Positions 804 to 50,633 of a stretch of DNA of 64,000 nt are shown piece by piece. The notes below the pieces were generated by a model. The model was not told the DNA's origin. It saw nothing but the letters and a program-made list of their open reading frames with translations, and did not search any database. A program made the translations under genes and the position numbers. The stretch's first letter is position 1. Every line of letters begins with the position of its first letter. This stretch comes from a virus. The stretch covers positions 1-64,000 of the IMG/VR virus record IMGVR_UViG_3300027896_005310. The stretch is one strand, 5' to 3'.

Positions 804-3056
804 ATGAAAATTTATAAAGTTGGAGGTTATGTTAGAGATATAATATTGGGACTCCCCTCTAAAGATACAGACTACATAATAGTTAATTCTTCTCCTCAAG
901 AAATGCTTGATTTAGGGTATGAATCCGTAGGTAAGGATTTCCCTGTATTTTTACATCCAGAAACAAGAGAAGAATATGCTCTTGCACGTAAAGAATTTAA
1001 GAGAGGACATGGTTATCATGGCTTCGATTTTGAAGTGTCTGACGTGACTTTAGAGGATGATTTGTATAGACGTGACCTAACTATCAATGCTATCGCTTTG
1101 GACGCTGATAACAACCTAATAGATCCTTACGGAGGGGTTTCAGACTTAAAAGAAGGTATATTACGTCATGTATCTACTCATTTCAGTGAAGATCCAGTAA
1201 GAGTTTTGAGAGTAGCTAGATTTGCCGCTAAATTAGGATTCACAGTACATCCTTACACTTTAGCATTAATGAGATACATGGTAGAAAATGGGGAATTAAA
1301 CTATCTTACTCCTGAAAGAATAAGACTTGAGTTAGAAAAGGCTTTAGCAACCTCTAAACCTTCCACTTTTTTTATCATCTTAAATGCTTGTGGAGCTTTA
1401 AAAATAGTATTTCCAGAATTATATAATCTCATGGGAGTACTACATTCTCCTGATCATCATCCTGAAGGTGACGCATATTGGCACACTCTTTCTGCTATTG
1501 ATTATGCTTGTGAATTAAGTGGTAAAATAAGTGTTAGATTTGCAACTTTATGTCATGACTTCGGGAAAGCTATGACCTTAAAAGAAGACTATCCTCACCA
1601 TTTGGATCATGACTTAAACGGAGTACCTCTAGTAGAAAAATTTTGTGAAAGACTAAAAGTGTCTAATGAATTTTCTACTTTAGCTTTAAAAGTTACTAGA
1701 TGGCATATGTTTGCTCAACATTCTTTAGAGTTAAAAGCTAAAAATATTTTAAAATTATTGACTTCTATTAACGCTCTTAGAAATCCAACTGTTCTAGAAG
1801 ACTTTTTAGTCTGCTGTCAGTCAGACAATTTGAGTAAACTTAATAAAAGACGTTTTATTCAAAAACCCTTTTTAGAGCTAGCTTTAGAAGAAATCTTAAA
1901 TTTAGATATAAAACCTTTAACAAAAAAATATCAAGGGAAAGTATTAGGGGATGAAATTAAAGCTCACAGGATATTAGCTTTAAAAAAATTTAAACAAATT
2001 TTTCATTCTAATCGTGGGGAAGAAATAGTCATTCAAAAAAATAAATTAGTAGAAAGATTTTATCAAGAATACCCCAACAAAAAAATAATTTTATTAGTTA
2101 TTGCTGGATCTCATTTTTTTGATATGGATTCAGAAAGTTCTGATTTAGATTTTAGAGGAATTTATTTATCTTACGATGAAGAAAAAAGAAATGAAATTAA
2201 TTTTGGTACAAATCAAACTAATACTCAAAGAAATACTTCGGAAGATATAGATTGTAATTTTTATTCAGTGTATAAATTTTTAGATTTATTAGCTGCTGGC
2301 GATTTTAATATGCTAGAGATGCTATTTGCTCCCACTTCTAAAATTTTAATAGACACTCCTCTTTATCAATGGTTAAGAAAAATAAGATCAATTTTTATTA
2401 CCAAGGATATTAGTGCATTCATTGGGTTTATAAAGAAAGAATTTTTTAAGCATGGTCTAAGTAAAGATAACTATAATTCTCAGGTAAGATTTTTAGAATT
2501 TTTAAAAAAATATTCTCCCGAAACAAGATTAACTGAAATATGGCAAGATTTAGAAAATTATTCAAAAGATGAAAAAAATTTAATGCGAATTACTACTAGT
2601 AAAACAGGATCTAATGTTTTAGTAAAAAGTTTTGTTATCGCTCAAAGATTATATCAAGCTACAATTTCAATTTCTTATCTTAGAGATTCTCTAGAAGAAA
2701 AAATTTCTCGATATGGGCATAGGATGAAAAATCGAGGAGAAGATGGTTTCGATTATAAAGGTCTATACCATAGTATGCGTTTAGTCATGGAAGCGAAAGA
2801 TATAATAGATAAAAATGCTTTGGAATTACCTTTTTCTCAAAAAAGAAAAGAAATTTTAAGAAAAATTAAAAATGGAGAGATTGACAAAGAAAAATTATCT
2901 AATAATATTTCAAAAGAAATTGAATATTTGAGACAATTTGATCATTCTGATGAGAAAAATAAAAGATATTTAGAAGATTTGGTAAATCGAATTAAATGGA
3001 ATTTACAAAGTGAAATAGAAATTATAAAAATTATAAATAAAAAAAGAAAAGACTAA
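804..3056 (+). CDS. cca: CCA-adding tRNA nucleotidyltransferase fused to a second nucleotidyltransferase domain
   Basis: The N-terminal ~400 residues are a bacterial class II CCA-adding enzyme. GGYVRD is at 7-12, catalytic DTD at 21-23, and RRDLTINAIA at 89-98. An HD-type phosphohydrolase region follows (WHTL near 227, HD at 251-252), as in the E. coli-type enzyme. From about residue 405 a second Pol-beta-like nucleotidyltransferase begins: GS at 435-436, SDLDFRG with Asp447/Asp449. It resembles the YcgL-type predicted nucleotidyltransferases, with a long helical C-terminus. At 750 residues it is far longer than an ordinary Cca (about 410). The first part would add or repair CCA ends on tRNAs; the second domain's substrate is unknown. 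Confidence 0.9.
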   Translation: MKIYKVGGYVRDIILGLPSKDTDYIIVNSSPQEMLDLGYESVGKDFPVFLHPETREEYALARKEFKRGHGYHGFDFEVSDVTLEDDLYRRDLTINAIALDADNNLIDPYGGVSDLKEGILRHVSTHFSEDPVRVLRVARFAAKLGFTVHPYTLALMRYMVENGELNYLTPERIRLELEKALATSKPSTFFIILNACGALKIVFPELYNLMGVLHSPDHHPEGDAYWHTLSAIDYACELSGKISVRFATLCHDFGKAMTLKEDYPHHLDHDLNGVPLVEKFCERLKVSNEFSTLALKVTRWHMFAQHSLELKAKNILKLLTSINALRNPTVLEDFLVCCQSDNLSKLNKRRFIQKPFLELALEEILNLDIKPLTKKYQGKVLGDEIKAHRILALKKFKQIFHSNRGEEIVIQKNKLVERFYQEYPNKKIILLVIAGSHFFDMDSESSDLDFRGIYLSYDEEKRNEINFGTNQTNTQRNTSEDIDCNFYSVYKFLDLLAAGDFNMLEMLFAPTSKILIDTPLYQWLRKIRSIFITKDISAFIGFIKKEFFKHGLSKDNYNSQVRFLEFLKKYSPETRLTEIWQDLENYSKDEKNLMRITTSKTGSNVLVKSFVIAQRLYQATISISYLRDSLEEKISRYGHRMKNRGEDGFDYKGLYHSMRLVMEAKDIIDKNALELPFSQKRKEILRKIKNGEIDKEKLSNNISKEIEYLRQFDHSDEKNKRYLEDLVNRIKWNLQSEIEIIKIINKKRKD

Positions 3057-3914: not shown

Positions 3915-4661
3915 ATGGGAAAATTGCACGAAATTTTAGTAGTAGAAGAAGATAAAAAAGGCATCTCTAATAAAATTAAAGAAGAAGCAATTAAAACTTT
4001 TAAAGATAAACAAGCTCATTTTGTGGAAAAAATAGAAGTTTATAAACCTTTAGCTGAAGGGGAGCAAAATATAGTTGAAAGTCATACAACTATGGTTACT
4101 ACTGTAAAAGAAAAACTTGCGTATATAAGTAATGCTGTATGTAGTCATATAGATGCATTCTATCAAAAAGAAGCTACAAATACTTATGCTAAAGCTGATA
4201 TTATGATTGGAGATCATTCTTTATTAAAAGATGTGCCAGCTACAGCGCTTTTAGCTTTAGAAAGAGAATTAAATAGTTTATTACAATTATTTGATGCTAT
4301 CCCTACTTTGGAACCAGGAATAGATTGGCAATCAGAACCACAAAGAGGAGAAAATATTAGGTCTTCTACTCAAAATAGGGGAAGAACAAAAAAGATATTA
4401 AAGCCAGTTGAATTGACGCCTGCTACTAAAGAACATCCAGCTCAATTTGAGAAAATTTATGAGGATATAACTGTAGGATATATCGAAACAAAAATATATA
4501 CATCTAAAATGTCATCAGCAGAAAAAGCAGAATTAATGGAAAGACTAAACACATTAAAAACTGCTATAAAAACTGCTCGAAAAAGAGCTAACAATGCTGA
4601 TGCAGACAAAAGAAAAATAGGTAAAGTTTTATTTGACTATATAAATGAAGGTAAATTATAG
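3915..4661 (+). CDS. conserved phage protein of unknown function (DUF7873-like)
   Basis: A 248-residue, mostly helical protein. Recognisable motifs are the start MGKLHEILVVE, TVKEKLAYISN, DVPATALLALERELN, ATKEHPAQ near 170, and a C-terminal KTARKRANNADADKRKIGK. I recall the same pattern in a family of about 250-residue phage and bacterial proteins lacking a known function, annotated as DUF7873; that name is from memory. AAAAGGAAAT precedes the ATG. It lies 15 bases after the winged-helix gene and is probably co-transcribed with it. Confidence 0.7.
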   Translation: MGKLHEILVVEEDKKGISNKIKEEAIKTFKDKQAHFVEKIEVYKPLAEGEQNIVESHTTMVTTVKEKLAYISNAVCSHIDAFYQKEATNTYAKADIMIGDHSLLKDVPATALLALERELNSLLQLFDAIPTLEPGIDWQSEPQRGENIRSSTQNRGRTKKILKPVELTPATKEHPAQFEKIYEDITVGYIETKIYTSKMSSAEKAELMERLNTLKTAIKTARKRANNADADKRKIGKVLFDYINEGKL

Positions 4662-4805
4662 TTACGAGATGAAAGTAGATTTAGATTCAGATTTAATATA
4701 GACTATGCAATCTCTCTCAGAGAGGAAGGTCTATTCAGATTTAGATTAAGAGTTGTGCTTTCAAAGTAACACAGTTAAGTAGTATCTGATTGTTAAATGA
4801 TTAAA

Positions 4806-4884
4806 TAGGCGAGGTAGGAGTTCAATTCTCCTTTTCCCCTCCATAAAATTTTATGGGGAAATAGTTTAGCGGTAGAACAAGCTA
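4806..4884 (+). tRNA. circularly permuted tRNA: 3' half precedes 5' half
   Basis: The first part (4806-4843) is a tRNA 3' half: variable loop GAGGT, T-stem AGGAG/CTCCT around loop TTCAATT (4816-4832), acceptor strand TTTCCCC (4833-4839), discriminator T, and encoded CCA (4841-4843). After only 11 bases comes a tRNA 5' half: acceptor strand GGGGAAA (4855-4861), T8-A9, D-stem GTTT/GAAC around AGCGGTA with conserved A14, G18G19 and A21 (4864-4878). The acceptor strands are a perfect 7-bp match. Neither half has a partner in normal order nearby. The anticodon arm is weak (CTA/TAG, 4882-4884 with 4806-4808), so amino-acid identity is unassigned; discriminator U73 and the D-arm look glycine-like. 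Confidence 0.6.
4844..4854 (+). other. palindromic linker between the permuted tRNA halves
   Basis: TAAAATTTTAT joins the CCA end to the first acceptor base. With its flanks it forms the perfect palindrome CCATAAAATTTTATGG. In a transcript the acceptor stem would be a hairpin closed by this loop, as expected for a permuted precursor needing trimming at both new ends. Confidence 0.5.
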
Positions 4885-4938
4885 ATAAGTAACAAATCAT
4901 TAATTAATCGATTTAATGCTACGATGAATTAATAATTC

Positions 4939-4986
4939 AAGACCTGCCTGGACTGCGGGGATGTTTGTTCAGGTTAGGTCTTTTTT
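4939..4986 (+). terminator. terminator after the permuted tRNA region
   Basis: AGACCT pairs with AGGTCT, and CCTG with CAGG inside it, and the stem is followed by six T. An alternative inner hairpin (CCTGC/GCGGG) competes with the long stem. It would end the + transcript carrying the tRNA halves. Confidence 0.55.
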
Positions 4987-5000
4987 CAGGATGAAAAATA

Positions 5001-28579: not shown

Positions 28580-29706
28580 CATTTTGTTACTTAAACCTCT
28601 GTTAGAGGCGAATGAGCTTTTCAACTCATTTCTCATAGTTACCTATGAGTTCAGACTGTATCACCATTTCTGTTATTAAAACAGAAAGCCCGGCATGTCT
28701 TGAGAAATTACTTTCTCAAAATGGGAGTTATCATCATGCTCTATATAAATAGAGTTTAGATTTTCCCCAGTCGTTGAACCTTCAATGCTATTTCTAGCAA
28801 AGCTTGGCTGCTGATTGTCCTTACAAAATCTTTTTGGAATTTTATGATATAAATCTTCAGTAATTTCAGATTGAATATATTCCCAAGCTATATTATGACT
28901 TTCCTTTAAAACATGAATGTTTCCTTCACCTTCAGAATTCCAAGTAATAGAAACTTTAAGATTTAAAACATCTGCTAAAACATTAATCGCTTCTTTTGTT
29001 TTAAAAAAAGGATCAAAAGTGCAAATATCAAAACCATAACCAGTAGTACTTCCATCATCAAGGAACCAAAAAGCAAATCCTGAAGGAGTTAATTTTTGTA
29101 ACCATTGTGTAGAAATTATTTTTATACCTTCTGGATAAAGTTCTTTACGAAATTCTGTAAATTGAGGTAAAGCAAAACTTCTAGCGTCAACATAAGGAAA
29201 TAATTCTCCCCCTTCTTCAAAAGCTCTTTCACCATAAAATACTTTTGCAGTAAAGGGTTTCATAATTTCAGCTTGTTTTAACAAATACTTTTCTTGTTTG
29301 GTAGTATGTTGGCATAACCAATATCCTGTTCCTGATTTTTGAACAGCAATACAAGAATCACCTAATAAAGAACCATATAAAAATTGTTTTTGTCGATCTG
29401 AAAGAGGTACAAATCTTAAAGGGTTTCTTCGTAATCTATAATTAGGATCTGTTTTAATCCCATATATTTTACGTAATTTTCTAACCCAACTTCGAGAAAT
29501 ACCATGCTCATTAGAAATTTCGGTATCACTAAATCCAATATACTCATATTGTTCACGAAGAAAATCTTCAGACAATATAGAAGATAAAGAATTTAATTTT
29601 TTTTGACTTATTATGATACCATTTATATTCATTAATTTTTTCCAAAAATCTTATAAATTGGAGTTTCCAGCAATTTACCGAGTTTAACGTCCACTGATTC
29701 TAGTTA
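28580..29706 (-). other. group I intron in the major capsid gene
   Basis: All core elements are readable on the - strand. P1 CGTCCAT/GTGGACG has a U.G pair at the 5' splice site (29707-29713 with 29688-29694). P is AATTGCTGGAAA (29660-29676), Q CAATCAGCAGCCAAG (28802-28817), R GGTTCAACGACTGG (28767-28780), and S GATACAGTCTGAACTC (28647-28662). P7 pairs GACTG with CAGTC. The intron ends in G (28580). Q and R lie inside the 3' end of the endonuclease reading frame. Spliced exons restore the capsid frame. Length 1127 nt. Confidence 0.9.
28676..29632 (-). CDS. intron-encoded LAGLIDADG homing endonuclease
   Basis: A 318-residue protein with a helix-turn-helix N-terminus (FSDTEISNEHGISRSWVRKL) and two LAGLIDADG helices (LYGSLLGDSC at 85-94; FAFWFLDDGS at 187-196). 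It would cut intronless capsid genes and promote intron homing. Its last ~50 codons double as the intron's Q, R and P8 elements (DNQQPSFARNSIEGSTTG encodes Q and R), so RNA structure constrains the protein end. The ATG follows the P segment closely. Confidence 0.9.
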   Translation of the reverse strand: MNINGIIISQKKLNSLSSILSEDFLREQYEYIGFSDTEISNEHGISRSWVRKLRKIYGIKTDPNYRLRRNPLRFVPLSDRQKQFLYGSLLGDSCIAVQKSGTGYWLCQHTTKQEKYLLKQAEIMKPFTAKVFYGERAFEEGGELFPYVDARSFALPQFTEFRKELYPEGIKIISTQWLQKLTPSGFAFWFLDDGSTTGYGFDICTFDPFFKTKEAINVLADVLNLKVSITWNSEGEGNIHVLKESHNIAWEYIQSEITEDLYHKIPKRFCKDNQQPSFARNSIEGSTTGENLNSIYIEHDDNSHFEKVISQDMPGFLF

Positions 29707-49296: not shown

Positions 49297-50633
49297 GATG
49301 TTGACCTTTTTGAATTAATAAAAGTTTTTATATCTTTTTTAGACAAATTTGATTTAAAATCTTTTGTCTTTTTTAATTCTACAGTCGAAAGTGAATTTAC
49401 TGAATTGGAATTTTTGCTTCTCTCCATCATCATTGCTAGAGATTCAGAATAAGATTTATATCTATTTAAAATAGCAGATGTTTTTTCTATATTTTCAGGT
49501 TCCTCCTTTTTATTTATTTGTTTATTTTCAATTTTAGGCAAAGCAATTATAGGCATCTCTTTAAATTGTATGCAACATCCATTCAATTTTTTATGCAAAA
49601 TCATTAAATCTGCTTCTAAATTTAATGCATCAGCAGAATGAGTATAATTCAAAATATCATCTAATATTTTTGAAATCTCTTCCCCGTAATAATTTTGTAA
49701 TTGCTTACCTAAATTTAATTCTTCTGGATTATTAAAAGTATCTACCCCAAAATTTAATTTATAAATTTTTATAAGAGTTTCTACTAATCCCTTGTAAATA
49801 TCAGGAATACTTCTTTTTAAAATTAAATTATAGAGAATATTAGACATCTCCAAAAAATTATCTTTTAAATGTAATAGTATTTTCAGATACTCTATTTGGG
49901 TAGACAAATTAAAATAATTAGAAACGACAGAATCAGTAATTTCCCCAAAATTAGATAAATAGTCTAAATGTTTCAAAGCATCTCGAACATGGGGAGCATC
50001 TATAGAAGCTATAGTTTTTAAAGAATTTTCTGTATAGAGTATATTTTCTTTTTGACAAACTAATTTTAATCTATTAAAAATAGATTCTTTAGAAATTTGA
50101 TTTAAATTGAATTCGAAGCATCTTGATCTTACAGCTTCATTCATATTTTCGGGAGCAGTAGTACAAAAAATATAAATTTGATTATCTATATTGTCCTCCA
50201 ACTGCTTTAAAAGAGCTTCATTACCCATTCTACTAATAGAATGACACTCATCAATAACTAAGACTCTATTTTTATACCCGCCCAGAACTCTAAAATTAGC
50301 ATCATTTCGCAGTTTTCTTATATCCTCTACTCCGCCATTACTAGCAGCATCGATCTCTGTATAAGCAGGATTAGACCCTTCTAGGAAGGTTCTACAACTA
50401 GTACACTCATTACAAGGTTCTATATCTGGAGTCAAATGCTCACATAATATAGCTCGTCCAAAAATTCTAGCTAAAGAAGTCTTCCCCGTTCCAAAACATC
50501 CCCCAAACATAAAAGGCATTGAAAATTTATTCGCTTTCAACAAACCTTTTAAAACTCTTATAATCCCTTCTTGATCTAAAATGTCTTTAAAAATTAATGG
50601 ACGATATTTCTGAGTAAGTGCGTAAATCCCCAT
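49293..50633 (-). CDS. dnaX: DNA polymerase III gamma/tau-like clamp loader ATPase
   Basis: A 446-residue DnaX-type protein: start LTQKYRPLIFKDILDQE, Walker A GGCFGTGKTS (44-53), zinc ligands C64 and C74xxC77xxC80, Walker B VLVIDECHS (124-132), and sensor SRC (170-172, arginine finger). It would load the phage beta clamp encoded just upstream. The C-terminal tail is Ser/Lys-rich and shorter than bacterial tau, so it resembles gamma. No delta subunits are visible in this window. Confidence 0.9.
   Translation of the reverse strand: MGIYALTQKYRPLIFKDILDQEGIIRVLKGLLKANKFSMPFMFGGCFGTGKTSLARIFGRAILCEHLTPDIEPCNECTSCRTFLEGSNPAYTEIDAASNGGVEDIRKLRNDANFRVLGGYKNRVLVIDECHSISRMGNEALLKQLEDNIDNQIYIFCTTAPENMNEAVRSRCFEFNLNQISKESIFNRLKLVCQKENILYTENSLKTIASIDAPHVRDALKHLDYLSNFGEITDSVVSNYFNLSTQIEYLKILLHLKDNFLEMSNILYNLILKRSIPDIYKGLVETLIKIYKLNFGVDTFNNPEELNLGKQLQNYYGEEISKILDDILNYTHSADALNLEADLMILHKKLNGCCIQFKEMPIIALPKIENKQINKKEEPENIEKTSAILNRYKSYSESLAMMMERSKNSNSVNSLSTVELKKTKDFKSNLSKKDIKTFINSKRSTS

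Follow-up and report, generated by a model that had tools for sequence, protein, structure and literature searches.

Circularly permuted tRNA genes have been described in red and green algae and in crenarchaea (PMC3978253, PMC3218864). In these genes, the 3' half comes first, a short intervening sequence lies at the acceptor end, the acceptor strands are complementary, and the terminal flanks have to be removed. The phage class described here resembles them in all of these features. Two other RNAs have a permuted order. The bacterial Y RNA YrlA (RF02553), like the locus studied here, presents a T-arm, an acceptor-like part and a D-arm in permuted order together with an end-to-end stem, and the permuted two-piece tmRNA (RF04321) shares with it the T-arm, CCA, an intervening loop and a GGGG 5' end. 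Among phages, Lak megaphages have tRNAs with unclassified introns that were called enigmatic; these tRNAs have the normal order, unlike the permuted class, and the likeness is one of description (PMC6784885). Theta ribozymes adjoin phage tRNAs and are thus a precedent for RNA-catalyzed processing of phage tRNAs, but they are HDV-like and cut tRNA 3' ends, with no permutation or joining, unlike what we propose (PMC10879173). We found no report of permuted tRNAs in phages in the open-access literature, and an earlier description elsewhere is possible. On balance, we think that the locus analyzed here belongs to a class of circularly permuted phage tRNA genes that have intron-like flanks and whose halves would be joined to a circle.

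A permuted tRNA core in a viral contig

The DNA analyzed, called the window here, is the first 64,000 nt of a 70,304-base viral record, and all coordinates below are window positions. A first-pass annotation had proposed a permuted tRNA near 4.8 kb, with the CCA-bearing 3' half placed before the 5' half. On direct reading, the elements were found where proposed, in the order T-arm, acceptor 3' strand, U73, CCA, linker, acceptor 5' strand, U8 and D-arm (4816-4879; Table 1). The two acceptor strands (4833-4839 and 4855-4861) pair 7/7 in Watson-Crick fashion, as had been claimed. All 16 core pairs of this copy, in a low-GC phage, are intact (15 Watson-Crick pairs and 1 GU pair), as are CCA, T8, G18G19 and A21. 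An order finder requiring the T-arm, acceptor pairing, T8 and the D-arm gave a single match in the window, against a chance expectation of 0.017 per 64 kb computed on both strands with first-order Markov sequences. ARAGORN called no tRNA in the window and none in record bases 60001-70304, in agreement with the claim that a normally ordered partner is absent, and Rfam at the gathering threshold had no match anywhere in the window.

The linker had been described as a palindrome. The palindrome, CCATAAAATTTTATGG, is present and spans 4841-4856, so it extends past the linker and includes the CCA plus acceptor bases 1 and 2. The minimum-energy fold of the isolated window locus favored this palindrome over the acceptor stem. 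An 8-base direct repeat, AAGTAACA, was also found in both of the places given for it (4764-4771 and 4887-4894); it may have arisen by chance in AT-rich DNA and is not common to the class. The terminator said to follow the unit is there as a terminator-like hairpin. Upstream of the unit, a strong hairpin with repeated AGATTTAGATT arms was seen at 4677-4745, with no homologue seen.

Table 1. Features of the permuted tRNA locus and of the upstream fusion gene (window positions)
Feature	Position	Strand	Description and basis
CCA-adding enzyme fused to RlaP-like nucleotidyltransferase	804-3056	+	PF01743, PF12627 and HD in first half; PF10127 (RlaP) at residues 416-556
5' flank strand of predicted closing helix	4779-4802	+	22 bp with bulges, formed with 4895-4922; fold
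Spacer, flank helix to T-arm	4803-4815	+	any remnant of an anticodon stem is limited to 3 bp (TAG 4806-4808 with CTA 4882-4884)
T-arm	4816-4832	+	AGGAG 4816-4820 pairs with CTCCT 4828-4832, loop TTCAATT; sequence and model R1 match 4816-4879
Acceptor 3' strand, U73, encoded CCA	4833-4843	+	TTTCCCC 4833-4839, U73 4840, CCA 4841-4843; sequence
Linker, 11 nt, TAAAATTTTAT	4844-4854	+	part of palindrome 4841-4856; sequence
Acceptor 5' strand, T8, A9	4855-4863	+	GGGGAAA 4855-4861, T8 4862, A9 4863; sequence
D-arm	4864-4878	+	stem GTTT 4864-4867 with GAAC 4875-4878 (one GU); loop AGCGGTA with G18G19 and A21
A-rich spacer, D-arm to flank helix	4879-4894	+	resembles 5' intron start of relatives; inferred from L075, L066 and L048 flanks
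3' flank strand of predicted closing helix	4895-4922	+	same fold as 4779-4802
Intrinsic terminator-like hairpin	4940-4986	+	core 4943-4959; by reading of the sequence, a T-run and longer arms (AAGACCT/AGGTCTT)

Recurrence of the permuted order in viral contigs

IMG/VR was scanned with a pattern consisting of a T-loop, four acceptor pairs, CCA, a linker of 4-34 nt and TA. The retrieved loci contained 95 matching rows, of which 75 were not flanked by a normal tRNA; these 75 include the window itself and a few rows that duplicate one locus. ARAGORN, run on both sides, showed that the pattern does not stem from tandem normal tRNAs. Although the pattern imposed only four pairs, the acceptor paired 7/7 in 68 of the 75 partner-less rows, and chance pairing at all three free acceptor positions is expected in about 5% of cases. 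The identical pattern was applied to cellular genomes, with one genome per species. Only 1 of the 118 cellular matches listed was 7/7 without a normal partner, and those listed were mostly normal tandem tRNAs. By this test, therefore, it is viral contigs that are characterized by the permuted order (68/75 viral rows versus 1/118 listed cellular matches). The single cellular unit of this kind among the matches listed (L222, 3170-3216) possibly lies in a prophage.

A general finder returned 80 non-redundant units at 58 loci, 64 of them with an encoded CCA; because this finder demands pairing, covariation among its units is partly selected. A model (R1), made from 30 other units with the window left out, matched the window at 4816-4879 with 58.3 bits (E=6.4e-17), where core matches, like the T-stem/acceptor covariation (A1), are partly built in by unit selection. 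R1 had no second match in the window and none in record bases 60001-70304. A blastn search of phages with the window locus gave short chance matches only. Relatives carrying two unrelated decayed tRNA pieces, with no conserved acceptor complementarity, would have counted against the first-pass annotation; what we found was the identical order with acceptor complementarity in many viral contigs. As judged from its sequence, the permuted unit of the window belongs to this recurring phage class, and for its core this assignment is firm.

tRNAs predicted from the joined halves

When the halves of each unit were joined, the anticodon arm was significant in 54 of 79 units (p≤0.05 versus shuffled flanks). 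In one group, the 3' half contains the anticodon arm, and the halves meet near position 29/30; in another, the 5' half contains the arm, and the halves meet within the variable loop. Many relatives would give canonical tRNAs on joining. L075 reads CGUCC-AUGAAAA-GGACG and corresponds to Phe (GAA) with A73, L066 and L071 read ACGGC-AUGUCAA-GCCGU and correspond to Asp (GUC) with G73, L033 and L103 correspond to Asn (GUU) with G73, and L048 corresponds to Ile. The discriminators fit the isotypes, with G73 for Asp and Asn and A73 for Phe. As a possible sign of function, the absence of the permuted isotype from the normal tRNA set was considered, with a mixed outcome.

In several units whose arm lies in the 5' half, U33 is replaced by A or G, for example, CAGUAAA and CGUUUAA; units of this kind were seen in L095, L089, L097, L086, L035, L081, L088 and L014. 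This replacement perhaps confers resistance to anticodon nucleases. Stop-codon anticodons (CUA and UUA) occur in permuted units of L069 (5564), L104 and L044. L069 is a phage contig that also carries a normal-order tmRNA gene (4121-4529, 84.8 bits). On the reverse strand of L014 (about 1380-1860), Gly- and Asp-like permuted units lie apart from the phage's array of 30 tRNAs, and a repeat, GUCCACYGACAUGC ... GCGGACGUACACGC, is found between them.

The flanks as a possible intron-like element

The upstream and downstream flanks of the units pair with each other. Among 62 units with dissimilar flanks, the best flank helix had a mean score of 20.6 for native pairs versus 16.1 for mismatched pairs, and none of 20,000 permutations reached the native mean (p≤5e-5). 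In 31 of 62 units, the motif UACA(N)G occurs within the 50 nt that precede the T-arm, where 5.5 such units would be expected, and it is present in the downstream flanks of only 3 of the 62; in many units it comes directly after the flank helix. This combination of a helix and UACA(N)G sets the class apart from the algal and crenarchaeal genes.

Searches by blastn led to Vibrio phages KVP40 and phi-Grn1. Here, the KVP40 genes "tRNA-Pseudo-4" and "-5" and tRNAs of phi-Grn1 have the normal order plus a hairpin insert, the loop of which is CUGAUAAG, CUGUUAAG or CUGACAAG; after the hairpin comes UCUGCA or GCUGCA. The insert is small and appears to be located in the anticodon arm (KVP40, L122 1433-1680 and 805-1300; phi-Grn1, L124), and the tRNAs bearing it are annotated as pseudo or as tRNAs of 114-122 nt. 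In BUCT194 (L247, 120-360), a phage that, like KVP40, can be grown in laboratory Vibrio, a 3' half is followed by a whole tRNA with an insert (AACAGCAAACC) and then by the matching 5' half. We infer that a single intron-like element is split between the two flanks of a permuted unit, half in each. In our judgement, the elements of normal-order and permuted tRNAs would be identical, on the basis of short motifs rather than a formal alignment. Because of the recurrence, the canonical tRNAs, the flank pairing, UACA(N)G and the inserts in KVP40 and phi-Grn1, the phage class appears to be broken at a small intron-like element.

Proposed joining mechanism

The transcript would contain the 3' half, the short linker and the 5' half, in this order. 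Its flanks would zip together beside the anticodon region, as the two halves of the small intron-like element. Excision of the element and joining of the exon ends would then produce a circular precursor, which, as in algae, RNase P and 3' processing would open at the linker. The cleavage, the joining and the circle are predicted from the observed core, recurrence, flank pairing, motif and canonical joined tRNAs.

Algal and crenarchaeal permuted tRNAs depend on a BHB motif and the tRNA-splicing endonuclease, whereas this endonuclease family (PF01974) was found in 0 of 26 records carrying phage permuted tRNAs, some of which may be fragments. The joining machinery should therefore differ from that of algae and archaea, as the first-pass annotation had anticipated. 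Among the same 26 records, many of which are fragments, RtcB was found in 6 and RNA_ligase was above the cut-off in 6, and neither was found in the complete 73-kb BUCT194 genome. A ligase was therefore rejected as the common partner. Joining by host enzymes or by RNA catalysis is possible. More broadly, we tentatively propose, at somewhat short of even confidence, that phages of many kinds have tRNAs, of normal or permuted order, that are interrupted by an element of about 40-60 nt (helix plus UACA(N)G) that is spliced without the tRNA-splicing endonuclease, by the RNA itself or by an enzyme. If true, permuted copies would give rise to circular tRNA precursors, and bacteria and their viruses would have a new type of tRNA splicing, with tRNA joining in bacterial cells independent of the known endonuclease. 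It would also account for the "pseudo" tRNAs in phages like KVP40, and standard tRNA finders would be missing many phage tRNAs.

The window copy and alternative explanations

The window copy is an outlier within the class, having neither a significant anticodon arm nor UACAG. The rotated copy had been expected to form a complete tRNA, but joining its halves did not give a significant anticodon arm (p=0.42 for class I and 0.23 for class II), in contrast to the majority of the units. It also differs in this respect from the algal and crenarchaeal genes. The 75 nt preceding its T-arm do not contain UACA(N)G. With the flank helix, the window fold had a z value of -2.83, and 0 of 200 shuffles were equally stable; when the core was fixed and the flanks alone were shuffled, 21 of 500 were as stable as the native fold (p about 0.04). 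The best ungapped flank helix was no better than that of mismatched flanks (0.525). Among the units with U73, the window included, 5 of 13 had a significant anticodon arm versus 36 of 49 others (Fisher p=0.025, a post hoc comparison). The window copy may be a tRNA mimic that lacks an anticodon, or else a member of the class that has diverged or decayed. From the sequence, we prefer to read it as a divergent tRNA-like product that possibly has no anticodon and whose acceptor resembles that of tRNA-Gly (U73 and a short D-loop).

A stable permuted tRNA mimic of the YrlA type, with a long end-to-end stem and never spliced, would explain the nonsignificant anticodon arm and the lower frequency of significant arms among U73 units (again, post hoc). 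The long predicted flank stem, which closes the T-arm, acceptor and D-arm, agrees with such a mimic, as does the element order, which is identical to that of YrlA, and several relatives match RF02553 below the cut-off. The window, however, had no RF02553 match even at E≤10, and assignment to the YrlA family was rejected on this ground. In addition, a TROVE/Ro60 gene (PF05731) was absent from the 70,304-base record, possibly a fragment, and the locus has an encoded CCA together with a complete 7-bp acceptor, neither of which is required in a Y RNA. We consider such a mimic somewhat unlikely. Decay of a functional permuted tRNA, with loss of about 25 nt comprising the anticodon loop and the 3' part of the intron, is compatible with the absence of UACAG and with the short distance between flank helix and T-arm, 13 nt in the window versus about 25-40 nt in relatives whose 3' half carries the anticodon. 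Against this stands the preservation of every core pair and base listed above in a low-GC phage. Because the core is intact, the copy is likelier maintained than decayed, and we regard decay as unlikely.

It could also be that no joining takes place in the whole class, and that linker processing gives two RNAs held together by the acceptor and flank helices. The order and the end-to-end helix are indeed like those of the permuted tmRNA, and RF04321 gives a weak alignment (15.6 bits, E=0.16) that covers the T-arm and acceptor. This score is far from the cut-off of 47, the D-arm is that of an ordinary tRNA, and ARAGORN called no tmRNA in the window; a permuted tmRNA was thus discarded as an identification. 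For joins near 29/30, the clamping helix would fall inside the anticodon stem, the common flank motif suggests more than a clamp, and normal-order tRNAs have a similar insert. A two-piece tRNA is improbable in our view. A permuted group I intron around the tRNA was suggested by a hairpin at 4698-4734 that looks P7/P8-like by eye. RF00028 had no match near 4.8 kb, its weak matches being at 28632-28919 and 50239-50355 only (a split intron could escape the model), the class flanks are far too short, and this hairpin is not common to the class. Such an intron is highly improbable, and we rejected it.

Genomic setting

The record contains portal and terminase genes, in line with its being a phage genome. 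Its terminase is closest to that of a 485-kb uncultured phage (35.6% identity). Upstream of the permuted unit is an operon encoding the fusion of a CCA-adding enzyme listed in Table 1 and a DUF7873 protein, with a stop codon ending at 4661. The first-pass annotation had pointed to this fusion as possibly relevant. The fusion is real: its second half matches RlaP, a family of RNA-repair nucleotidyltransferases, and it also matches phrog_2244 and phrog_388. Its relevance to the permuted RNA is a matter of conjecture; speculatively, it could be an accessory for this RNA. As a probe for relatives among viral contigs, the fusion led to none that were confirmed. Homologues, as fused or adjacent genes, were seen in Rheinheimera, Vibrio and Alishewanella phages. 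Elsewhere in the window, a single protein encoded at 22983-25130 matches the HNH, LAGLIDADG and Mom-like families.
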